A stretch of 23,138 nucleotides of DNA, taken from positions 1-23,138 of the IMG/VR virus record IMGVR_UViG_3300023501_000057. One strand, given 5' to 3'. The notes beneath the pieces were generated by a model. The model made no database searches and was not told the DNA's origin. It was given only the letters and a program-made list of their open reading frames with translations. This document shows, in pieces, positions 6,954-21,697 of the stretch. Each line of letters starts with the position of its first letter. The stretch's first letter is position 1. The translations under genes and the position numbers were made by a program. Origin of the DNA: a virus.

Positions 6954-7107
6954 CCCAGACATGATAAAACCCCTCACTGCCCGAAGGTACCTAGCAGGAC
7001 AAGCTCTTGCTGGAATACTTTCAAGTAGTAGAGGGGCTTTAAATATGTCTGAGGTAAAGCGTTCAGCATACGAGTGGGCAGACTTTATGTTAGAGGATGA
7101 TGATTAA
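6904..7107 (+). CDS. Small phage protein of unknown function, last gene of the left arm
   Basis: At most 67 residues. The core RRYLAGQALAGILSSS ... AYEWADFMLEDD looks like a widespread class of small helical phage and prophage proteins with an A-x-x-G-hydrophobic helix and an AYxxADxML helix; the function is unknown. Two starts are possible: ATG 6904, overlapping the previous gene by 50 bp, or ATG 6961, seven bases after its stop, giving 48 residues. The second fits the packing style of the other genes; neither has a clear Shine-Dalgarno sequence. The stop overlaps the converging structural gene at TTAA. Confidence 0.55.
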   Translation: MSNLEQEAKKYTRKKRNPDMIKPLTARRYLAGQALAGILSSSRGALNMSEVKRSAYEWADFMLEDDD

Positions 7108-10100
7108 TCTAGGCCAAAGCCTTGGACTACTGCCCTATAGTTATCTTTCTGTATTAGGATGTTGATCAAGTTTAACTTTGACAATGCGTCTTCTCTTTTG
7201 TACACATCTTCTAAGCTACCAGTAATCCCTAAGAACTTCATTGCTTCTAGGGCTTTCTTTTTGTTGCTAGGTTTAGATAAAACCCTAAGCATAGTTAAGC
7301 TTTCTGGCATGTGTCCATCATCAAACAATGCTTTAACATTACCTTGAACTTCTTTCTGCATGTCAGCTACAATCTGTGCTTTCTTTTTTTGTTCCATATC
7401 AAAGAAGTCTGGGTATCTGTTTAGATATTTTATAGCAGCAATCTCAAAGTAAGGGTTGACCAAGCTTTGCATTTTTCTTTTGACAACAGCAGGGCCATCA
7501 AACTTTGTAGCTTTCCAGCTAGGTATACCTGCAGCATTCATCATCATCTCTGCAGAGATAGGTTCTCCTGACTGCCTAAACATTATTTGTTTGCTTATCT
7601 TTGTCGGTGCAGTCCTACCAAACACATCAAGTTTTCTTGGCAGATCAGAGTATGTTTCTTCTGATCCAGTGGGTGTAACACCACCAACTAAACCATCAAT
7701 GTATTTTATGTAACCTTGGTATTTATACTGTGCCATATTTAAATCAGGTGCGCCACTTTGATCAGTAAACAATTTGTAAAACTCGTTGACTGGTTCTACG
7801 TGTCTAGTAAGACCTTGACCAGCACGTGCTATAAAAGGTCCAAGCACTGCGTCAACTATGCCCATGTAATCGTCATCTTGAATTTCTCTTAAAAGAGACT
7901 CTCCAAAAACATAAATACTTTGCTGAGTCACACTTTCCATATCTCTAATTGCTTGACCACCTAGTTGAAGTCCTAATTCTACAATTAAATCAGGGGGCAC
8001 TTTATCAAAGTTAAGGCTAGTAAGATTATCAAACTCTCCCATAGTAGCATGAGCTAAGATTTGAGCTGTCACTTGTATTGTAGAGTTGGGCCAATCATAT
8101 CTTACGTCAGCAATAGAACCATCATTAAGAACTTGTTGGTTATATGCTAGACCATTCTTAACACGATAAACTGCAGTATTTTTTTGTTCATGAGGTAGCA
8201 TGTCAGTATCAGTATCTGACAGTCCGTAGGTTGCTAAACCTATTGTACTGTAACCAACAATAGTTTTGCCAAGTATCTCAGCACCTTCTCTTGTTACAAA
8301 GTCTATCTCTTTACCTGTCGCCTTCATCATAGCTATACGCATTGCATTTACGCCAGTCAAATCGGCAGCAGTAGCAAGGGTTGTATTTAAGAAAGAGCCA
8401 AACGGAACTAAAAAACCAAAAGGGGTTTTATTAGTCGCAATCTCAATGTATTCAGCCATAGATCTAAAACTCCAACCCACATCTTCTTCTAGTCTACTCC
8501 AATTAACAGATGCAGTTTCTCTTTGAGTTCTAAACAAAGCTTTTTCTGCTACATTAGTAAGAAATCTTTCCTTACCCATAGCTAAATGCACAGCTTCTTT
8601 AGAAACTTGACCTGACTTCCACTCACCTTTAAAGAATTGTTCAGGTGTTATTCCGTACTCTCTCATAATAGCTTGGTTCATGTTATTGCCAAAGGCCCAA
8701 GTTTTAGTTATGTCATCTTGTACTCTTGCTAAAGATAGTGTTTGCATAGCCTTAGTATAACCATCAACACCTTTATAAATTTTATTGTTTGGATCTAGGT
8801 TAAATTGTTTGATGCTATCAAAAGCACCACCATCACCAGCAACATCTCTGAACAATGCTTCTCTAGTCTTAGGGTCTAAGTCAAAGTATTTCCTAGCGTA
8901 TGCCATCTCAATGTCAGGGGATACTACGGAGTAACCCCTACGTACAGCACCAGCAGCAGAACCCCAGCCTCTGTTGTAGTACATCTCTGATTTCCTAAGA
9001 GCTGAAGCTTTATTAGCTTGATTTATAGAACCCCTACTAATCAATCTGTATGTACCACTCTGACTAAAGTTTATAGCGGAGGTAGCAAAGTCAGAGAAGT
9101 TATTAAGTGTAACAAGTTGTTTAAAACCTTTAAGGTTAGCACCTGTTGTAGATAAGTGAGAGGTAAGTAGGCGTTTGTACACGGATAAACCAAACTGCAT
9201 TCTCTTTGGTTTGTCGCCACCTTTATGATACTTACCTGCCATAGCAGATAGTTTTTCTGCGGCTGTTAGTTTACCACCAGAAAGTTGCCCAAGAAGAGAG
9301 CTTACATTAAGCGCACCACCAGCACCTACTTGTGTTTCTATAAATTGTTTTCCTAATTCTTCTCCTGTTTTACCTAAACCTATAGGCCTACCAATAGTAT
9401 TTTCATACTGCGTTGTTATCCTTTTAACAACATCATCATCAAGCCACTTAATAGTTTCTCCAAAGATACCACTAATTTTAGCATCTTCTCTCATACTAGG
9501 GTGAACTTGAAATCCAGCATCTTCTAATACCTCAAAGTAACCCTTTAAGTTTTGACTAGAGTCACCAAAGAAAAACCTACGAAAGAACTGAGTGGTCAAC
9601 TCGTTGTCACCCATCTTACCACCCAGTTGACTTAGAGTTCCAGATGCATCTTGTTTAGCATCGTCCCAAACTTTAAAGTCTACAGGTCTTGTACTACCAC
9701 GAATTGTCCCAAAGTTTGCATCTACTGCAGTGAAGATACCACCCATACTAGGGTTTAATTTAGCTTTGACGTGGGCCATTGCCTTCTTAGGATCAAGCTT
9801 ACCAAGAGTAAGGTCTAGGTCTATGTATTTTGCAAAGTCAGGTGTAAGTTTACCTTTTGCTCTCAGAGCTTTGACACCTTCTTTAGTTAGTACAAGAGAT
9901 GGAATCACCATACTACCAAGAGCAGCAAAGCCTGTTTGATATCTACTGTAAGTTTCTTGTGCATCAGTACGAATTAATTGCATTTGATACGCAACATCAG
10001 CACCCATAGTAATACCACCGTCTACTATTGCAGGTGCAATTACAGCAGTAGCAGCAGCTCTCCTACCTAGACTGACACGTGCGGCCTGTTTAGCAGCAGG

Positions 10101-10940
10101 TAAAGCTACACCTTTAGCAAGTTGTGCCTTAAGTAATTTTTTGTAGGCCGTTTGTGCAAGAGTTCTTAAAGCTAGTCCCGTTGCTTTGGTTGTACCTACA
10201 CTTAGTAGTCTGCCAAAACCAATACCAAATAACAGGCTTGGGTCATGGAGACCAGCCCTGAGATAGTCTCCTGTAGCATCAGCAGCTTCAGACCAAGAAC
10301 CTTCACCAGTAAACGCATTGTCCATCTGGTTAAACAGCTTATAACCTGCACCAAGTTTGGCTCTTGTCATATCATCAGCAGCTATACCATACACAGATTC
10401 ATTAGCTACAGTTACAGTTTGCAATGCAGTTAAAGATCGTTGGTAGTTTTGATATGTTTCAAACAAATCTTCAGGTGACATAGACCTGTAGTCCCTGTCT
10501 AAACCACCTATAGTTCCACCAGCAGTAGCAGTGGCAGCTCTATAACCTTTCTTAAGGAGACCTGCTGGTTTAAACCTAGCTTCCATTGCGCTTGTCATAA
10601 CTTCTATTAGGTCAGGGTCTGAGATAATGTCTTCTTTAATTAAAGGTTTGTTGTTATACTTATCTGTAAAGTGCTGGTCAAGGTCTATGAATAGGGAACT
10701 TTGTGGGCCTTGAGGGACTACCTTACGTATAGCAACTTTAGGAGTTAAGTTTAAAATATCTTCTAGTGTATTAATACTAGGTGTAACTTTAGTTACAACA
10801 GGTTCTGCTGTAGTAACAATGGGTTCAATACCTAAAATACTTTCTAGGGTAGTAGTCTCTTCTTCTACAACAGGTTCAGGCATAACAGTAGCAGTAGTGG
10901 TGTCAGTTAAACCTAAAATACTTTCTAATGTGTCTGCCAT
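7104..10940 (-). CDS. Giant ejection / internal virion protein (T7 gp16-like size and position)
   Basis: A 1278-residue protein at the end of the structural arm, close to T7 gp16 (1318 residues), which is ejected to form a channel across the host envelope. I assign it by size, position next to the transglycosylase and smaller ejection-type proteins, and composition: long amphipathic helices plus several hydrophobic glycine- and alanine-rich stretches (around GRRAAATAVIAPAIVDGG, FGFLVPFGSFL and GKTIVGYSTIGLATYG) that could insert into membrane. It has no lysozyme motif of its own; that domain is the separate gene at 12581-13495. The first 65 residues carry a T-L-E-[SD]-I-L-[GN] motif three times at exact 27-residue spacing. 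The start overlaps the upstream stop by one base (TAATG). Confidence 0.65.
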   Translation of the reverse strand: MADTLESILGLTDTTTATVMPEPVVEEETTTLESILGIEPIVTTAEPVVTKVTPSINTLEDILNLTPKVAIRKVVPQGPQSSLFIDLDQHFTDKYNNKPLIKEDIISDPDLIEVMTSAMEARFKPAGLLKKGYRAATATAGGTIGGLDRDYRSMSPEDLFETYQNYQRSLTALQTVTVANESVYGIAADDMTRAKLGAGYKLFNQMDNAFTGEGSWSEAADATGDYLRAGLHDPSLLFGIGFGRLLSVGTTKATGLALRTLAQTAYKKLLKAQLAKGVALPAAKQAARVSLGRRAAATAVIAPAIVDGGITMGADVAYQMQLIRTDAQETYSRYQTGFAALGSMVIPSLVLTKEGVKALRAKGKLTPDFAKYIDLDLTLGKLDPKKAMAHVKAKLNPSMGGIFTAVDANFGTIRGSTRPVDFKVWDDAKQDASGTLSQLGGKMGDNELTTQFFRRFFFGDSSQNLKGYFEVLEDAGFQVHPSMREDAKISGIFGETIKWLDDDVVKRITTQYENTIGRPIGLGKTGEELGKQFIETQVGAGGALNVSSLLGQLSGGKLTAAEKLSAMAGKYHKGGDKPKRMQFGLSVYKRLLTSHLSTTGANLKGFKQLVTLNNFSDFATSAINFSQSGTYRLISRGSINQANKASALRKSEMYYNRGWGSAAGAVRRGYSVVSPDIEMAYARKYFDLDPKTREALFRDVAGDGGAFDSIKQFNLDPNNKIYKGVDGYTKAMQTLSLARVQDDITKTWAFGNNMNQAIMREYGITPEQFFKGEWKSGQVSKEAVHLAMGKERFLTNVAEKALFRTQRETASVNWSRLEEDVGWSFRSMAEYIEIATNKTPFGFLVPFGSFLNTTLATAADLTGVNAMRIAMMKATGKEIDFVTREGAEILGKTIVGYSTIGLATYGLSDTDTDMLPHEQKNTAVYRVKNGLAYNQQVLNDGSIADVRYDWPNSTIQVTAQILAHATMGEFDNLTSLNFDKVPPDLIVELGLQLGGQAIRDMESVTQQSIYVFGESLLREIQDDDYMGIVDAVLGPFIARAGQGLTRHVEPVNEFYKLFTDQSGAPDLNMAQYKYQGYIKYIDGLVGGVTPTGSEETYSDLPRKLDVFGRTAPTKISKQIMFRQSGEPISAEMMMNAAGIPSWKATKFDGPAVVKRKMQSLVNPYFEIAAIKYLNRYPDFFDMEQKKKAQIVADMQKEVQGNVKALFDDGHMPESLTMLRVLSKPSNKKKALEAMKFLGITGSLEDVYKREDALSKLNLINILIQKDNYRAVVQGFGLD
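10746..10931 (-). repeat. Three diverged 81-bp repeats encoding a TLESILG-type motif
   Basis: Residues T4, T31 and T58 of the 1278-residue protein begin TLESILGL, TLESILGI and TLEDILNL, exactly 27 residues (81 bp) apart. The DNA keeps a recognisable core (on the + strand, close to CCTAAAATACTTTCTA) in the first two copies and a more diverged third. The linkers are V/P/T/E-rich and probably disordered. Confidence 0.8.
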
Positions 10941-12037
10941 TACTGCGTCCTATTAAATTGTTCTATTAGTTGTTCTGTTACAGTTTGTTCTCTAATAGCC
11001 CCACCATCCCCATAAAATTTAACTTTGGTACCTACAGGAATTAAATTAGTTTGCATAAGATACTTAAAAATTTTCTGTCCGTATTCATCTAAGTCTTCTA
11101 CGTCTTGCACTGGCGCAGTTAAATCAAGATCAGGACGTTGAGCAGCTTCAGCATACGATCTTGGAAACTGTCCCATTTTTACTGCATTGTCTAGCACAGG
11201 TTGAGACTTAATGTATTGACTTGCATAAGAGTTTCCAAACAAACCAAACAAGTCTGTTAATATGGGTATTTCTCCTGTAGCGTTTGATATGCCTGACTGA
11301 ATTTGTCCTACTCTAGCAGCTAACCATTTATTAACTTCAGCGTCTTCTGAAGGAAATTGACCTATTGTGTCTTGATATTTTTTTAACTCTACCTGAGCAG
11401 TACGAACAACTCCTTGGCCAACAGCTCTAGTAGCGGCATCCAAGTCTTTAAAAGAAAGCGCAGGTACAATATTTAAACTCTCTGCTTGAAGATTTATATT
11501 TGCTCTTGGTTCTACATCTTTACCAAACATAAGACGTTCAGCTTCACTTGCAGTGATACCAAACTGTTCAAGCACTGCATCTACATCAACCTTGTAACCT
11601 TCTGGCTGTGTAATCACTGCGTTGTTTAAAGCTTCAACAAACATCTCGTTAGGCATGGGGTTACTAGCACCGTATTCTTCAGTGTGTTTTTTCTTTGCTG
11701 ATATAAAGGACTCTACAATTTTATTTAAATCAGAAGCACTACCACCAGAAATTCTGCCAAGTGTTGCATCTGGGATATCAAACTCTACTAGCCGTGCTAG
11801 ACTTTGTTCAATAGGGGGGATAGATTTTCTAGTAGTTTTACCGTCAGCGGAAGCTACCTTATAGTCACCACCAGTAAAACTACGTCTGTTTTTATCCGAG
11901 TATTTTAGTGCCATACCCAAAAGTTTTATCCTATTGCCCTCTGTAAACTGTGCATCAAGTTTAGCTTCAGCTAATTCTTTTTCTTTTTTAGCCTCAGAGC
12001 TTTCTATACCTGCAGCTATACCTGCCCACATACCCAT
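10940..12037 (-). CDS. Putative internal virion / ejection protein, 365 residues
   Basis: A mainly helical protein beginning MGMWAGIAAGIESSEAKKEKEL, a short hydrophobic start followed by a charged coiled-coil-like segment. I do not recognise a named family. It lies immediately upstream of the 1278-residue protein with a one-base TAATG overlap, the position taken in T7-like phages by the middle ejection proteins (gp14/gp15), so a role in the ejection apparatus is inferred from context. An AAGGAG Shine-Dalgarno sequence precedes the ATG, located in the end of the upstream gene. Weakly hydrophobic patches occur mid-protein (ILTDLFGLFGNSYA). Confidence 0.5.
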   Translation of the reverse strand: MGMWAGIAAGIESSEAKKEKELAEAKLDAQFTEGNRIKLLGMALKYSDKNRRSFTGGDYKVASADGKTTRKSIPPIEQSLARLVEFDIPDATLGRISGGSASDLNKIVESFISAKKKHTEEYGASNPMPNEMFVEALNNAVITQPEGYKVDVDAVLEQFGITASEAERLMFGKDVEPRANINLQAESLNIVPALSFKDLDAATRAVGQGVVRTAQVELKKYQDTIGQFPSEDAEVNKWLAARVGQIQSGISNATGEIPILTDLFGLFGNSYASQYIKSQPVLDNAVKMGQFPRSYAEAAQRPDLDLTAPVQDVEDLDEYGQKIFKYLMQTNLIPVGTKVKFYGDGGAIREQTVTEQLIEQFNRTQ

Positions 12038-12038
12038 A

Positions 12039-12569
12039 TCACATTACTCCTTGTGGTCGTGCCATTAAACCCATAGATTTTTCTTCAGGCATATCTTCTA
12101 CTTTAGTATCACGTATGGGTGTCTTAGCCATAGAAGCTTCAAGATCACCTAAGTCAGGCTTCTTGTCCATCTTAATGTCTCTAAGAACCTTACGTGCTTT
12201 ATTCTCACGGATAGCATAGGCACGTTCTTCTTGAGTATCATCCTCATCAAGACCCTCATCATAGTCAATACCTGTAGCATCTGCTAAACCTACGATATGT
12301 TCATGGATGATAGGGGCAATGATCATGCTCACGTCTACGCTATGCTCACCGTTAGCTACAGCATTACGAAGGATACCCTCAGTCATGGTGACAACATCAA
12401 TGTCTAACTGCAAGAAGTCTAACATAGCCTCTGCTCTTTTAGGTTGATTAAGTCTTTCAAGATGATAGATTATTGCATCTTCTGGTGTATTAAGACGAGC
12501 AGCATTTTCCCAAGGATAATTCTTAGGCTCATTAGTCAATGACTGACCGGGGATTGGTGCTTCAAACAT
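12039..12569 (-). CDS. Conserved marine-phage virion protein (MFEAPIPGQSL family)
   Basis: A 176-residue protein with the recognisable start MFEAPIPGQSLTNEPKNYPW and an inner TEGILRNAVANGEHSVDVSMI segment. From memory this combination recurs in many marine myo- and podoviruses as a small structural or virion-associated protein of unknown role. The C-terminus is acidic, then basic (YDEGLDEDD ... KARKVLRDIKMDKK), and looks flexible. It sits between the transglycosylase and the two ejection-type proteins, so it may be a portal- or core-associated component. A one-base gap separates it from the next gene; AGAGGA precedes its start. Confidence 0.65.
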   Translation of the reverse strand: MFEAPIPGQSLTNEPKNYPWENAARLNTPEDAIIYHLERLNQPKRAEAMLDFLQLDIDVVTMTEGILRNAVANGEHSVDVSMIIAPIIHEHIVGLADATGIDYDEGLDEDDTQEERAYAIRENKARKVLRDIKMDKKPDLGDLEASMAKTPIRDTKVEDMPEEKSMGLMARPQGVM

Positions 12570-12580
12570 TCTTTATTCCT

Positions 12581-13495
12581 CTACTTTGTCAGGTACTTAA
12601 GGTATTTATCTACAAGTGGCATAACTTTTTCTCTTGAAATACTTAAGCCATCTCTATTTAACTTTGGACCATCGTGATGAAGTGCATAAATATATTCCTC
12701 GCCTAAACCTTTTTGTTTAGCCATAGTTATATTATCTACAGTATGGTCTACAAGAGCTTGCACCTGAGCTTCTAAATTCCAACGTGTATCTTTATTTATA
12801 TTATAACTTTTACCAGTCAGGTTTACAAATTGTCCAATACCAGATGCACTACTTTCATGTGCTGCGGCTTCAGGATTAAAACCAGACTCAACAGAAGCAG
12901 TAGCTAAAGTATATGCAATCTCTCGTTCACTCATACCAGCCTGTCTACCAGTACCAATAATTAAGTTTATAACTTTTTGTTTTTCTTCTTTAGTGGTGTC
13001 ACCTGCTGCTCTGGAAAAACTTGCAAAGTTTCCTGATAAGGGTTTGTTAAAATAAGATTGAGATGCCACGTCACCTTCCAGACCGCCTTTAGAACCAAGT
13101 AAACTTGCAGGAAGACTTGATGCAATATCTACGCTTGTATTGGATACTGTTCCTTCTGGATCATCTGTAGTCCTTGACCCCTGCCTAGCTTCTAGTTCAC
13201 TCATAAGAATTTTATTTTGATTACGTGTTTGTGCATAAGCCCTATCTAAGATAGACATACTATCTTCATTAGTCTCAACACCTGATTTTATTCTTGGACT
13301 AACAAGGCCGGGAAGTCTGGACCTATCCATTTGTACTTGTTTAACATCAGAGTAAGTTCTTTTATTTTGTAAGCGAAAGTCAGCTTCATCAGAAGTGGTA
13401 GGTTTCTTAGTCTTGTCATTAGACAAGGATTCAAAAACCCCTTCTAAACTATTTCTTGCACCTTCTAAAAGTGTTTTGTAATATCCCGTTCCCAT
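12581..13495 (-). CDS. Virion-associated lytic transglycosylase
   Basis: A 304-residue protein with a C-terminal lysozyme-like (SLT/goose type) domain: LATASVESGFNPEA with catalytic E203, then HESSASGIGQF (residues 213-223), then YALHHDG (residues 270-276). This domain cleaves peptidoglycan glycan strands. The first 170 residues are polar and low in hydrophobics, with no signal peptide, which suits a capsid- or tail-carried enzyme that drills the cell wall during DNA entry rather than a lysis enzyme. In T7 the same activity is the N-terminal domain of gp16; here it is a stand-alone gene next to the gp16-sized protein. It starts eight bases after the hendecad protein, with AGGAAA upstream. Confidence 0.8.
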   Translation of the reverse strand: MGTGYYKTLLEGARNSLEGVFESLSNDKTKKPTTSDEADFRLQNKRTYSDVKQVQMDRSRLPGLVSPRIKSGVETNEDSMSILDRAYAQTRNQNKILMSELEARQGSRTTDDPEGTVSNTSVDIASSLPASLLGSKGGLEGDVASQSYFNKPLSGNFASFSRAAGDTTKEEKQKVINLIIGTGRQAGMSEREIAYTLATASVESGFNPEAAAHESSASGIGQFVNLTGKSYNINKDTRWNLEAQVQALVDHTVDNITMAKQKGLGEEYIYALHHDGPKLNRDGLSISREKVMPLVDKYLKYLTK

Positions 13496-13503
13496 TTAGT
13501 TTC

Positions 13504-15435
13504 CTATATGTCTAAAATTAATCTGGTAAGTATGGTGTACTTAGCCGTATCTTCATTGCTTTTATTTGTTTGTTCAGACTGTGTTCTGTACTGATCAATC
13601 TGTTTCTCACCAAGCATGATGTTTACCATACGATCTTTCTCTTGCTCACTGCCCTTGAAAGCATAGTCCATAAGGTCACGCTCACGTTGCCATATCTGAT
13701 CTACTGCGGATTTAGTAAATGTATTAATCGTAGCAGCATTGATCATGTTAGCTTCGTTCTGTGCTGCAGTATTCAACGTGTCTACGTTCTGTCTCCACTG
13801 TGCGTTAGCCTGAGCTACAACAAGACCATTCTGTGCGTTAAACTGATTACGTTGCTCTTCCATACTGGCATTAAACTTATCCACTGCATTCTCTTCACCA
13901 GCATTAAACTGAGAGATAGCAGTCTCTTGTGCAGCATTAAATTGATTAGCCTGTGTAGTTAAGTTAGCCATGAATTGTTTTGTTTGGTTCTCACTAGAAG
14001 CATTGAACTGACGTGAAGCATTCTCAGCAGCTTGATCTGTCAGTAAGGACTGCACGGTAGACTGAGCTTTAAACATAGAAGTTTGCTGTGCGTTATTCAT
14101 GTTAGCCATATCAACTTGTAAGAATGAGTTGGCATTCTGTACAGCAGCCTGTTGCTGGTTAGATAAGTTCTGAGACTCAAGCTGTGAGATAGCAGAAGCT
14201 TCAGCTAATATCATAGCCTGTCTATTAGTTAGGTTAGTTAGATTAACTGTGTTAGCATTACGACTGTTTTCCAAAGCAACTTGTTGCTCCGCAGTAAAGT
14301 TCATGTTTGCTACGTCACTAATCTTAGCAGCATTAGATACTCGTGCTTGGAACGCTTGGTCAAACTCTTGTCCCATAAAGGTAGCACGTTGTTGAGCTGC
14401 AAGCATAGCACGTTGTTGTCTGTTTGACAAGTTCTGCATTTCAAAACCTGCAGTGGTCTGTGCGTCAGCCATAGCAATAGGTAATGCAGACTCCATAGTA
14501 GCCTGTATGATAGCCTGTCCAGCCATACTACTAGCACCTAGTCCACGTGCAGCCATAGCTGCTGTAGCTGCTCTCATAGCTCCTGCTGCCCATGCTGGTG
14601 TCTCACCACCTTCAAAGTCTGCCATGAGTTCAGACAACTGGCCTTGCACTGTAGCTTTCTCTGATGGGGTAGCAGTAGCAGCTTGTACTTGCTCAGTAAA
14701 TGCAGCAGCTTTAGTAGCATCAGCCACACCTGAGATAAGTTCTCCGTCCTGTATCTCTCTTTGTACAGGGTTAGTCATTACTACAGCTTCACCTTGAGCT
14801 GCGGTTAAATCTTTTACACCAGTGGTTGCTGGGTCCATAGTAGCAGCGGTTACTTTTGCTGCGTCTGATACTACACCAGTCACTGGGTCTACATCAGCAA
14901 GAGCTGTAGTAACTTCTCCTGATGCTGTCTTGGCGTCTACTGTCTCTGAGGTTACAGCATCAGGTGTTGCAGCAGTAGATGCAGTGGCTATTACAGCAGG
15001 ATCAAGTTCAGGTGTTGCAGTAGTGATCTGACCAGTGGTAGGGTCTATGGTTCTACCTTCGGCAGAAGGGTCTATTGTGGATACGGTAGGTTGAGTAACA
15101 ATCTTACTAGGATCAGAAGACACATTAGCTACTAGATTTTGTTGACCTGTTATAGCAGTTTTTTGTAGTGCTAATACTCTCTGTCTCTCTTCTTCTGCTA
15201 GTTCTTCTGGTGTCTTAGCAGTTACAGTATCAGGGTCAGCAGTAGTAGTTGCAGTAGTCTCAGTGTCACCACCCTCTGCCATACCTGTGGCAGGTTTCAT
15301 AATATTTAAAGCCCTACGAACAGTATTTATACCTTCAGGTTTTGACATTAAAAATTTATCAACTGCTTCACTGTCAGCAGGACCATTATACCCAAACTTT
15401 CTAGCTACAGCTTCATTAAGTCTTTGATTAATCAT
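13504..15435 (-). CDS. Long hendecad-repeat virion protein
   Basis: This 643-residue protein has three parts. Residues 1-60 form a small folded start (MINQRLNEAVARKFGYNGP). Residues about 60-250 are a low-complexity T/A/V/D/P-rich stretch with DPxTG-type repeats, probably extended. From about 270 to the end it is helical, and residues 335-576 fall into 22 consecutive 11-residue repeats, many starting with N and ending Q-F (for example NAAQETAISQF and NAGEENAVDKF). Hendecads favour straight or right-handed coiled coils. The position between the membrane/adhesin genes and the transglycosylase suggests a tail-needle, internal-core or ejection component; no enzymatic motif is seen. The start shares a base with the upstream stop (TAATG). 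Confidence 0.6.
   Translation of the reverse strand: MINQRLNEAVARKFGYNGPADSEAVDKFLMSKPEGINTVRRALNIMKPATGMAEGGDTETTATTTADPDTVTAKTPEELAEEERQRVLALQKTAITGQQNLVANVSSDPSKIVTQPTVSTIDPSAEGRTIDPTTGQITTATPELDPAVIATASTAATPDAVTSETVDAKTASGEVTTALADVDPVTGVVSDAAKVTAATMDPATTGVKDLTAAQGEAVVMTNPVQREIQDGELISGVADATKAAAFTEQVQAATATPSEKATVQGQLSELMADFEGGETPAWAAGAMRAATAAMAARGLGASSMAGQAIIQATMESALPIAMADAQTTAGFEMQNLSNRQQRAMLAAQQRATFMGQEFDQAFQARVSNAAKISDVANMNFTAEQQVALENSRNANTVNLTNLTNRQAMILAEASAISQLESQNLSNQQQAAVQNANSFLQVDMANMNNAQQTSMFKAQSTVQSLLTDQAAENASRQFNASSENQTKQFMANLTTQANQFNAAQETAISQFNAGEENAVDKFNASMEEQRNQFNAQNGLVVAQANAQWRQNVDTLNTAAQNEANMINAATINTFTKSAVDQIWQRERDLMDYAFKGSEQEKDRMVNIMLGEKQIDQYRTQSEQTNKSNEDTAKYTILTRLILDI
13708..14433 (-). 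repeat. 22 in-register 11-residue (33-bp) repeats
   Basis: This region codes for residues 335-576 of the 643-residue protein. Splitting from NLSNRQQRAML onward gives 22 blocks of exactly 11 residues with no insertion. Asn dominates position 1, Ala or Leu position 2, Gln position 10 and Phe or another hydrophobic position 11 in the second half. The first half also shows a 22-residue super-period (N-hydrophobic-[ST]-N-x-Q-Q). Confidence 0.85.
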
Positions 15436-16430: not shown

Positions 16431-16765
16431 TAAGTTACCTCAGCCCAACTTGTTGTTTCTTCGTTCCATTCATACATCTTGTCATCACTAGGATACGCAA
16501 CAGGTGGCTCCCACAAACAAGTTGTTTCGTTTAATGTCCAACTTGGATAAGGCTGTGGGCTGTAGAAAGCATCCCTTGTGCTGTCATATGTACAGCCGAT
16601 ACCAGCATAGTTTTTTCTTAGAGGTGTGCCATCTAATATGTGTTGACCGCCATGCGTGTTGTATGAAGTCTGAACCCAAGTACCTACCTGAGTATCAATA
16701 AAATTTTGTTCTGCCACAATGACTTGCGTGACAATTTTGTTTTTAATTTTTGCATAATGTGCCAT
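16430..16765 (-). CDS. Adhesin-partner protein, copy B
   Basis: A 111-residue protein of a recognisable marine-phage family: MAHYAKIKN, then VIVAEQNFIDTQ, WVQTSYNT, GTPLRKNYAGIGCTYD, RDAFYSPQPYPSW and a tryptophan-rich end. About three quarters of its aligned residues match the 114-residue protein at 19987-20331 by hand alignment. Both copies lie near a glycine-rich adhesin gene, eight bases downstream of it in this case. Size and pairing suggest a tail-fibre assembly (Tfa-like) or tip-cap role, which is inference. The TAG stop of the adhesin forms part of its ribosome-binding site (TAGGAT). Confidence 0.65.
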   Translation of the reverse strand: MAHYAKIKNKIVTQVIVAEQNFIDTQVGTWVQTSYNTHGGQHILDGTPLRKNYAGIGCTYDSTRDAFYSPQPYPSWTLNETTCLWEPPVAYPSDDKMYEWNEETTSWAEVT

Positions 16766-16773
16766 GTTAAATC

Positions 16774-17628
16774 CTATTGATACTGATACTTAAAGATAAC
16801 AATGCCAGAGCCACCACTACCACCCACGTGGGTAGCACCTACATCAGCATGATAAGACCCACCACCGCCTCCACCTTTATTGGCAGCACCATCAACTCCA
16901 TTTCCTGCAGAGTTAATGCTTTGATAACCGTTACCGCCACCACCAGTACCACCTGTCCCACCAGAGCCACCGCCGCCGCCACCTGCATAGGTAGTGCTAT
17001 TACCCGACCATGCACGACCATCGCCACCGTGACCGTTAGCATCTGTATTTCCTGCTTCACCTGCACCGCCACCGCCATCAGCTACATTACTACCAGCAGA
17101 ACCACCATCATTGCCATAGCCTGTTAGACCACCTGAGTTTCCTTGGGTTCCAGAACCACCAGCCCTGTCGTTTGCATAACCAGAGCCACCACCACCTGAA
17201 CCACCATCGGCACCATTTATAGTTCCTCGGCCATGTGAGCCAAATCCACCACCAATTGCAGTAGCATTTATTGTTCCTATTACTGTGTTTGCACCACTAG
17301 CACCTACAGAGTTTGTTCCAGAATCTGCTCCACCTGCCCCAATTGTAACCGCATAGGTTGCTACTGATAAACTAAGAGTGCCTTCTAGATAGCCACCTGC
17401 GCCACCTCCACCACCATTAGAATCATTTGAGCCTGAGCCAGCACCGCCCCCTGCAACTGCAAGAATAAGAACATCCCCAGCCCCTGCTGTTATCTCAAAA
17501 GTTCCAGACGAAGTAAAAGTGTGTAGCTTATAATCACCACTGGTTGTAACTGTGCCACCAGTAGCTTCAATCAAAACGCCTCTGCTTGGATAACCACCAA
17601 AGCCTAATGTCTGATAACCAAAGCTCAT
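16774..17628 (-). CDS. Glycine-rich tail adhesin, copy B (putative receptor-binding protein)
   Basis: A 284-residue protein. Residues 1-60 form a short beta domain with YKLHTFTSSGTFEI and DVLILAVAGGGAG. The remainder is dominated by GG-rich runs (GGGGGAGG, GGGGGSGGTGG) ending SGGSGIVIFKYQYQ. This is the glycine-rich-domain pattern, and the glycine runs recall the polyglycine-II sandwich of phage S16 gp38-type adhesins, which bind host receptors with variable loops between glycine helices. Being the last large protein of the fibre cluster fits a fibre-tip role. A paralogue with the same architecture is at 20402-21697. Receptor binding is inference. Confidence 0.65.
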   Translation of the reverse strand: MSFGYQTLGFGGYPSRGVLIEATGGTVTTSGDYKLHTFTSSGTFEITAGAGDVLILAVAGGGAGSGSNDSNGGGGGAGGYLEGTLSLSVATYAVTIGAGGADSGTNSVGASGANTVIGTINATAIGGGFGSHGRGTINGADGGSGGGGSGYANDRAGGSGTQGNSGGLTGYGNDGGSAGSNVADGGGGAGEAGNTDANGHGGDGRAWSGNSTTYAGGGGGGSGGTGGTGGGGNGYQSINSAGNGVDGAANKGGGGGGSYHADVGATHVGGSGGSGIVIFKYQYQ

Positions 17629-19986: not shown

Positions 19987-20331
19987 TTAGTCTATCTCAA
20001 CCCAATTTGTTGTGTCTTCATCCCAAGTGTATCTTTTATCTTCACTAGCATCACTAGGATACGCAACAGGGCAATTCCAGATACAAGTATCTTCATTTAA
20101 TACCCAACTTGGATAAGGCTGTGGTGTATAAAAAGCATCCCTTGTGCTGTCATATATATAGCCAATACCAGCATAGTTTTTACGAAGTGGTGTACCTCCC
20201 AACAAGTGTTTACCGCCTGTTGTGTTGTATGATGTTTGAACCCAAGTGCCTTCCTGAGTGTCAATAAAATCTTGCTCTGCTACAATCACGCTTGTAACAA
20301 TCCCATTCTTTACTTTTGCATAATGTGCCAT
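19987..20331 (-). CDS. Adhesin-partner protein, copy A
   Basis: A 114-residue paralogue of the protein at 16430-16765: MAHYAKVKN, VIVAEQDFIDTQ, WVQTSYNT, GTPLRKNYAGIGYIYD, TRDAFYTPQPYPSW and a W-containing acidic end. DNA identity is high across the middle (for example around 20100-20200 versus 16540-16620), and even the TAGGATT Shine-Dalgarno region upstream of the ATG is shared, so the duplication includes the translation start. It follows glycine-rich adhesin A with a short tail-protein remnant between them. Predicted role: fibre assembly or tip cap. Confidence 0.65.
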   Translation of the reverse strand: MAHYAKVKNGIVTSVIVAEQDFIDTQEGTWVQTSYNTTGGKHLLGGTPLRKNYAGIGYIYDSTRDAFYTPQPYPSWVLNEDTCIWNCPVAYPSDASEDKRYTWDEDTTNWVEID

Positions 20332-20401: not shown

Positions 20402-21697
20402 TTATGTCAAATAGCGGATAATAACGATGCCTGAGCCGCCATTACCGCCAAGGATGTTTCCAGTAAAACCACCACCCCCAGCGCCACCTCCAGTATTTGC
20501 GGTGCCATTTTGAGCTGCAAGATCATTTGCTCCAGCATTGCCGCCACCGCCAGAGCCGCCAGCACCGTTATTATTATCTGAGGCATCTGAATTTGTACTA
20601 CCCCCGCCGCCACCAGCGTAATTAACTGATGTTCCCGTTATTGATGATGCAACCCCTGCTCCACCAGCACCTCCCCCTTCAGACGCAATGCCAGAGCCAC
20701 CCACAGCGCCAGCGCCGCCCCCGCCAGCAGCACCATAGAAGCCAGCGCCTGTAGAGGTGCCACCAGTATTTCCTTGGCCGCTTACAGCGGAACCGCCATC
20801 ACCACCATCTTTGCCGCCACCGCCGCCAGAGCCGCCGTCAAGTCCGTCAATATTATTCCAGCGTCCACCGCCGCCACCCCCAGTTGTTGATATAGAGTTA
20901 AACGAAGATGAAGCGCCGTTTGTGCCAACATTTTCGCCACTACCCCCAGCACCGCCAGCACCAACAACAACACTGTACGTTGCTGAACTAATAGACATTG
21001 CGCTGCCGCCAATATTTGTTAGCAAGCCACCAGCGCCACCGCCACCGCCACCCTTACCGCCACCGCCACCACCACCAGCAATAATTAAGTATTCCATATT
21101 TTTTGCGGTATTTGTAGTCACTATAAAATTAGCAGATGATAAGAACGTGTGTATAGTGTAACTACCAGAAGTAGTAATAGTACCGCCAGTTACAGAAAAA
21201 CTAGTTATAGCGGATGTAGCTCCAACTCCAAGAGAAACCCAAATGTTGTCATTATTCGTGGCGTCCGTGCAAATAAATGCTTCTCCGCTTGTAGTATTAA
21301 TCCACATATGGCCTATGGCTGATGGGTTACTGTTGTATGCTGGATTTCCGCTGTTAATCGTGTGAGCAAAACCTACTGCTGGGCTGGCCCATGCAGCAGC
21401 GCTTGCGCCACTATTGACTGTAAGAACCTGATTTGCAGAACCAAGTGTGGCTGGTAAAGCTACCTTGCCTGTTGTGCTTATTGTTCCTGTAAGAGTTACA
21501 TTACGGAGACTAGCTACATCTTTATTTGCATCTGCAGTTACAGTCTTACTGGCTACAACAGTTCCTACTGCAGCACCTGTATCATTGTAGTTTAACTCAG
21601 CAGTGGTAGCCGTAACACCGTCAATGATATTAAGCTCATCAATAGTTGCACTAAGCCCTGACCTGATCTGTGCTTGATTACCAATATAACCTGCCAT
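20402..21697 (-). CDS. Glycine-rich tail adhesin, copy A (putative receptor-binding protein)
   Basis: A 431-residue protein. It starts MAGYIGNQAQIRSGLSATIDELNIIDGVTATTAELN, joining the MAGYIG start to the ELNxxDGVTATTA repeat. A stalk follows (GKVALPATLGSANQVLTVNS), then a small domain with HMWINTTSGEAFICTD. From about residue 170 it matches adhesin B: GSYTIHTFLSSANFIV, MEYLIIAGGGGGGG, then dense glycine runs, ending GGNGGSGIVIIRYLT. The glycine-rich region of more than 200 residues again suggests a polyglycine-II-type receptor-binding tip. The start overlaps the upstream stop (TAATG). Confidence 0.68.
   Translation of the reverse strand: MAGYIGNQAQIRSGLSATIDELNIIDGVTATTAELNYNDTGAAVGTVVASKTVTADANKDVASLRNVTLTGTISTTGKVALPATLGSANQVLTVNSGASAAAWASPAVGFAHTINSGNPAYNSNPSAIGHMWINTTSGEAFICTDATNNDNIWVSLGVGATSAITSFSVTGGTITTSGSYTIHTFLSSANFIVTTNTAKNMEYLIIAGGGGGGGKGGGGGGAGGLLTNIGGSAMSISSATYSVVVGAGGAGGSGENVGTNGASSSFNSISTTGGGGGGRWNNIDGLDGGSGGGGGKDGGDGGSAVSGQGNTGGTSTGAGFYGAAGGGGAGAVGGSGIASEGGGAGGAGVASSITGTSVNYAGGGGGSTNSDASDNNNGAGGSGGGGNAGANDLAAQNGTANTGGGAGGGGFTGNILGGNGGSGIVIIRYLT

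Follow-up and report, generated by a model that had tools for sequence, protein, structure and literature searches.

Organization of the locus

The window, i.e. the whole stretch of 23,138 nucleotides analysed here (IMG/VR virus record IMGVR_UViG_3300023501_000057), carries on its minus strand a gene whose product contains a long series of 11-residue units, followed by a set of smaller and larger genes in the same orientation. The features of this protein and the neighboring genes are listed below, with coordinates referring to the window.

13504..15435, minus strand: gene of the 643-aa hendecad-array protein, an ORF with homologs throughout HMO-2011-type phages
13708..14433, minus strand: array of 22 hendecad blocks, residues 335-576, in exact 11-residue register, kept in homologs and proline-free
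14038..14433, minus strand: N-terminal sub-array, residues 335-466, 12 blocks, defined by block consensus, a hydrophobic phase of ~94 degrees and block counts
13708..14037, minus strand: C-terminal sub-array, residues 467-576, 10 blocks of the QFNA type, defined by a hydrophobic phase of ~300 degrees and block counts
14434..14649, minus strand: conserved pre-array segment, residues 263-334 (TPAWAAGAM...ARGLGASSMAG...ALPIA), with near-invariant columns in A1 and A4
13507..13707, minus strand: C-terminal post-array segment, residues 577-643, with constant Trp-to-Trp spacing
12581..13495, minus strand: transglycosylase or tail-lysozyme-like protein, 304 aa, with weak SLT, Phage_lysozyme2 and PHROG transglycosylase matches
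12039..12569, minus strand: 176-aa helical protein, constant partner gene, AlphaFold2 pLDDT 85
10940..12037, minus strand: 365-aa protein, fast-evolving, placed by synteny only in the position of a gp15-like protein
7104..10940, minus strand: 1278-aa protein, related by profile match to internal virion protein D (T7 gp16 position)

The sequence-only reading had described 22 gap-free blocks of 11 residues at positions 335-576 of the protein, and both coordinates and count turned out to be correct. Its description of the block motif was accurate for Asn at position 1, found in 16 of the 22 blocks, but not for the Gln-Phe pair at positions 10-11, said to occur in many blocks and actually present in only five, all located in the C-terminal part (467-532). 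Position 2 is Ala in 13 blocks, position 7 is Gln in 11 and position 11 is Phe in 7. When the protein was compared with composition-preserving shuffles, residue autocorrelation at lag 11 reached z = 7.2, and values of 5.0-6.2 were obtained at lags 22, 33, 44 and 55.

The array is divided into two sub-arrays by a conserved block, DQAAENASRQF, which forms the junction and opens the C-terminal one. In the N-terminal sub-array a 22-residue super-repeat, of the type NLSNxQQ.... / NAxxFLQMDMA, is present, and it is visible in several homologs. Beyond the array, the distance from its Trp to the next conserved Trp is 35 residues in all 214 homologs where the pair was found. The remainder of the protein is less uniform: the N-terminal part (residues ~50-115) differs greatly in length among homologs, and conservation begins around residue 260. 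Total lengths of homologs range from 433 to 1253 aa, some of them being incomplete at contig ends.

Distribution of the family

HMO-2011-type podoviruses are an abundant group of marine short-tailed phages, and the hendecad array is a family trait of this group and its relatives. A tblastn search detected matches to the array protein in 27 records of annotated phages, namely Roseobacter CRP phages, Puniceispirillum phage HMO-2011, Pelagibacter HTVC phages, Vibrio phage CHOED, Aeromonas phages, Sinorhizobium phage phiM6, Rhizobium phages and Pseudoalteromonas phage Slicky01. In all of them the protein is labelled hypothetical, with the exception of one record where it is oddly called 'huntingtin'. 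Scans with the protein and two alignments revealed homologs at 240 IMG/VR loci which, with the isolates added, provided 240 distinct sequences; further contigs with homologs were found among metagenome-assembled genomes.

No match to the array protein was detected in Pfam, in PHROGs or, by phmmer and profile searches, among PDB sequences, and it belongs to a family not described before. Since 11-residue repeats are already known in phage proteins, the kind of repeat is known; the family itself, its two-faced amide-centred pattern and its setting in a podovirus ejection block are absent from the families, structures and papers searched. Four short proteins, from Hahella, Paraglaciecola, Burkholderiales and Aeromonas contigs (L279, L280, L283 and L284), contain an RGLxxSS...ALPIAQQ motif, with arrays that are short or absent. 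They are possibly distant relatives and could shed light on the origin of the array.

Conservation of register and variation of copy number

When 88 proteins were aligned at the outset, the part corresponding to residues 335-576 differed in length from that of the window protein by 0, -11, -44, -55, -66, -77, +88 or +110 residues, all multiples of 11. Alignment bias was avoided by measuring, in each homolog, the distance between two anchors, namely the Pro of the ALPIA motif preceding the array and the Trp of the NxxWR motif inside the array end. This distance equals 8 modulo 11 in 232 of the 233 distinct homologs where both anchors are present, with 13, 14, 15, 16, 19, 20, 21, 25, 27, 28 or 38 units between them. 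Register-breaking indels in relatives, which would speak against the array as originally described, are therefore confined to the one out-of-phase homolog (L104), where seven additional residues lie outside the repeats, at the boundary before the first one.

At least 14 changes in unit number, all of them multiples of 11, were inferred on a FastTree phylogeny built on the conserved ends, whose columns include the last array blocks. One more 11-residue deletion was found in CRP-207, which was aligned separately. Copy number differs in both sub-arrays, but most in the N-terminal one, which contains 4 to 28 blocks, whereas the C-terminal one has, in nearly all homologs, 7 to 12 blocks ahead of its W block. 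The longest array (L141:73-2829) has 38 units between the anchors, or ~39 blocks, and would measure ~64 nm if fully helical.

The conservation of an in-phase register while copy number changes is the strongest result of the analysis. Because the register is kept across 240 distinct homologs in spite of these changes, the array is far from anything expected by chance.

Predicted helicity

Not a single proline was found among the 51,437 array residues of 232 homologs, although it makes up 4.6% of these proteins outside the arrays, and glycine is reduced from 8.9% outside to 1.3% within. AlphaFold2, run on an input of 69 sequences, predicted helices at residues 303-357, 362-421, 426-570 and 575-642 with moderate confidence, so that the pre-array segment is predicted to be helical from residue 303 onward. 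The pLDDT is about 80 over residues 440-500 and falls below 50 over 353-384. Separate short helices, an outcome that would have counted against the hendecad reading, were thus not predicted; the helices obtained are long, if only moderately confident and weak around 353-384. Taken together, composition and model support an array folded as a long, mostly continuous helix. The rod length of ~35 nm proposed earlier agrees with the 242 residues of the array, which at 0.15 nm each would span ~36 nm if fully helical.

The pTM of the model is 0.26, hence no packing between helices can be read from it. A Foldseek search with the same model yielded nothing meaningful, which is what a lone long helix at such a pTM would lead one to expect.

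Hydrophobic faces of the array

The distribution of residues was evaluated on a helical wheel of 11 residues per three turns. In the pooled homologs two hydrophobic stripes are observed, formed by positions 8/11/4 and 10/2/6 and separated by ~164 degrees, with Asn or Gln at the centre of each (positions 4 and 6). Charged residues occupy positions 5 and 9, and a narrow, uncharged, Gln-rich side is formed by positions 3 and 7. At period 11/3, hydrophobic power amounts to 0.1 for the window array and averages 0.52 over 232 homologs, below white noise; the corresponding values are 13.5 and 9.1 at 11/4, and 7.4 and 7.9 at 11/5.

The two halves of the array do not share the same orientation. The main hydrophobic direction is ~94 degrees in the N-terminal sub-array (20-unit clade), where positions 2, 6 and 10 dominate, and ~300 degrees in the C-terminal one, where the dominant face consists of positions 11, 4 and 8. 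This flip of ~180 degrees is located at the DQAAENAxxQF block and was observed in three sub-families. The pooled two-faced pattern is therefore partly a product of the flip, one face dominating in each half.

A plain hendecad coiled coil with a single seam was rejected on the basis of the pooled 11/3 power, and a helix carrying two equal seams along its length was weakened as a model, since the halves have opposite phases. The coiled coil pictured in the sequence-only reading is accordingly not supported in an ordinary, single-seam form, as no single hydrophobic seam exists, but the expectation of polar Asn and Gln residues at core-like positions was borne out, such residues being found inside both faces. 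P22 gp26, a trimer, also displays a strong second harmonic; harmonics do not separate tubes from trimers, and the test argues against one continuous core without proving a tube.

Comparison with tape-measure proteins

Tape-measure proteins contain variable numbers of 11-residue units (Belcaid 2011, PMC3271669), and share with the array in-phase gain and loss of units and an aromatic residue at a fixed place (PMC3271669). The variable unit number speaks for a molecular ruler, either tape-measure-like or matched to the host periplasm, a function that had been suggested for the rod at the outset. The hydrophobic pattern is the opposite, however. The tape measure of Lactococcus phage TP901-1, analysed with the same code, gave a power of 53 at 11/3, 0.9 at 11/4 and 0.2 at 11/5, that is one strong stripe, as opposed to 0.1 at 11/3 and two amide-centred faces with a flip in the array. 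In addition, phages with tape-measure proteins are long-tailed, whereas the literature places the related CRP phages among the podoviruses, with short tails (PMC6918029).

Phages of the same Roseobacter strain, FZCC0040, differ in block number, with ~21 blocks in CRP-207 and 16 in CRP-3 and CRP-235. This disfavours a ruler fitted to the envelope of the host, and the idea that unit number is set by the host was rejected on the same grounds. Arrays of 16 or 30 blocks are found in Pelagibacter phages. On the whole, a ruler of either sort appears very unlikely.

Additional domains in relatives

A C-terminal Peptidase_S74 domain, above the Pfam cut-off, was detected in CRP-3, CRP-212, CRP-235, L214, L246, L248, L251, L254 and L228 (locus labels L091, L265, L095, L214, L246, L248, L251, L254 and L228), a sub-clade with 14 units. 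Two of these proteins, CRP-235 and L254 (labels L095 and L254), also contain an N-terminal LysM domain above the Pfam cut-off. S74 domains are self-cleaving chaperones, which act in trimers according to papers on phage tail fibres and on MyRF.

These domains are relevant to a second reading, in which the array would form a homotrimeric coiled-coil rod, such as a tail needle or stalk, with layers of Asn and Gln inside and, in some relatives, assembly assisted by the S74 chaperone. The presence in the sub-clade of a domain typical of homotrimers is its main support, and LysM suggests contact with peptidoglycan in CRP-235 and L254. The P22 tail needle adds to this, since gp26 is a helical rod-former and trimer whose gene 26 sits, like that of the array protein, just before the ejection genes. 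The resemblance stops there: gp26 is a heptad trimer, with a best period of 3.48-3.50, the array consists of strict hendecads, and no sequence match exists between the two. Furthermore, the array lacks a single hydrophobic core along its whole length, its main face being flipped by ~180 degrees, and the S74 domain is missing from the window protein, according to a Pfam search, and from most homologs, its motif being found in 20 of 232. The trimeric rod, ranked second, is somewhat unlikely.

A membrane-inserting, glycine-rich hydrophobic C-terminal tail was also considered and rejected, as its signal did not rise above shuffled controls.

Gene neighbourhood

The sequence-only reading had placed the array beside a transglycosylase and ejection proteins, and a transglycosylase-like and an ejection-type neighbor were identified. 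The adjoining 304-aa gene product matches SLT and Phage_lysozyme2 below the curated Pfam cut-offs. It is an accessory gene, with homologs at 18 of the 261 loci of relatives, where a short gene of ~65-70 aa often replaces it. The 176-aa partner is present at 230 of the 261 loci and is more constant than any other neighbor; searches for it in PHROGs, in Pfam and, by Foldseek with its confident AlphaFold2 model, among PDB folds gave no match.

For the 1278-aa family, a profile comparison with HTVC019P gp37, annotated 'internal virion protein D', gave an hhalign probability of 97.5 (E 6e-12), and hmmsearch gave E 7.9e-14 (set of 12). This match marks the gene block as ejection-type, in keeping with the annotation of an internal virion protein D in CRP phages (PMC6918029), and the array gene appears, on gene order and profile matches, to head the ejection-protein gene block of HMO-2011-like podoviruses. 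In its position within the block the array protein resembles gp14, gp15 and gp16 of T7 and gp7, gp20 and gp16 of P22. Profiles of the array and 176-aa proteins gave no match to gp13-gp16 of T7, P-SSP7 or HTVC019P, and homology to T7 gp14 was rejected, the only similarity being a short local PIA match with a probability of 0.7% to a protein devoid of lag-11 periodicity. The label 'virion protein' used in the sequence-only reading rests on gene position, no virion proteomics of HMO-2011-type phages having been found in the literature searched.

The same setting suggests an internal head component, namely a core or spacer, either packaged along with the DNA or stacked onto the portal, that would be released at ejection without forming a tube of its own. 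The array gene lies in the ejection block, beside the relative of internal virion protein D, and in other podoviruses such proteins are housed inside the head, in some cases stacked into a core (PMC8954989). A strictly in-phase helix with variable copy number suggests instead a load-bearing or interface-forming helix, and the internal component, ranked third, is considered unlikely.

Elsewhere in the window, a phrog_7759 protein is encoded in two copies, 76% identical, at 16433-16765 and 19990-20331. Each adjoins a phrog_2295 protein, at 16777-17628 and 20405-21697, the two being 44% identical over 104 aa. These pairs look like a duplicated fibre cassette.

Proposed function

The closest mechanistic parallel is provided by protein H of phiX174, a decamer whose helices comprise three hendecads and then heptads, and whose interior is lined for the most part by Gln, Asn and Arg (PMC7354561). 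The H tube spans the cell wall and has been proposed to carry DNA across it (PMC7354561). Like the array, it is formed by a long proline-free helix with hendecads, rich in Gln and Asn (PDB 4JPP), these two residues making up 26% of H and 30% of the array. Differences are also evident: three hendecads plus heptads in H versus 15-39 hendecads and no heptads in the array family; a single-stranded DNA phage versus a double-stranded DNA podovirus of HMO-2011 type; a known decamer versus a putative oligomer. Neither phmmer nor profile searches against PDB sequences detected homology between H and the array protein.

Among the readings considered, the most likely one, put forward tentatively, is a tube or bundle of several helices that would deliver DNA in the manner of the H tube. 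For the array protein we infer a virion location, an oligomer, a tube and a part in DNA delivery, which could be combined as follows. The 22 hendecads would make up a single long helix, in which every 11 residues complete three turns, packing sideways through two opposite faces with Asn and Gln at mid-face, so that several copies would join side by side. The copies would probably be staggered, the N-terminal half of one resting on the C-terminal half of the next, to form a tube or bundle (a staggered ring). In this arrangement, the interior would be lined by the narrow, uncharged side rich in Gln (positions 3 and 7), and the charged side (5 and 9) would point outward. The tube or bundle would then extend the path of the DNA from the short tail across the cell envelope, with the relative of internal virion protein D and, in the window phage, a separate peptidoglycan-cutting enzyme as partners in delivery.

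In its most specific form the proposal states that a double-stranded DNA podovirus assembles two-faced helices into an all-helical, amide-lined DNA tube, similar to the H tube in mechanism but not by descent. Gain or loss of repeats would alter the length of this modular tube in whole hendecad steps of 1.65 nm, and the packing face of the helix would switch at a fixed junction. As a whole this combination is rather unlikely.

Phage hendecad arrays come in at least two kinds, single-striped, as in the TP901-1 tape measure, and two-faced, as in the family described here. Variable unit number and a near-unbroken register suggest that the helices build a modular tube or rod, which probably serves in DNA delivery. 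A proline-free helix whose evolution proceeds almost exclusively by whole 11-residue steps, and whose packing face changes sides at a conserved point, offers a clear handle on the system. The family also provides a case, open to testing, that amide-rich helical conduits for DNA arose a second time and independently.
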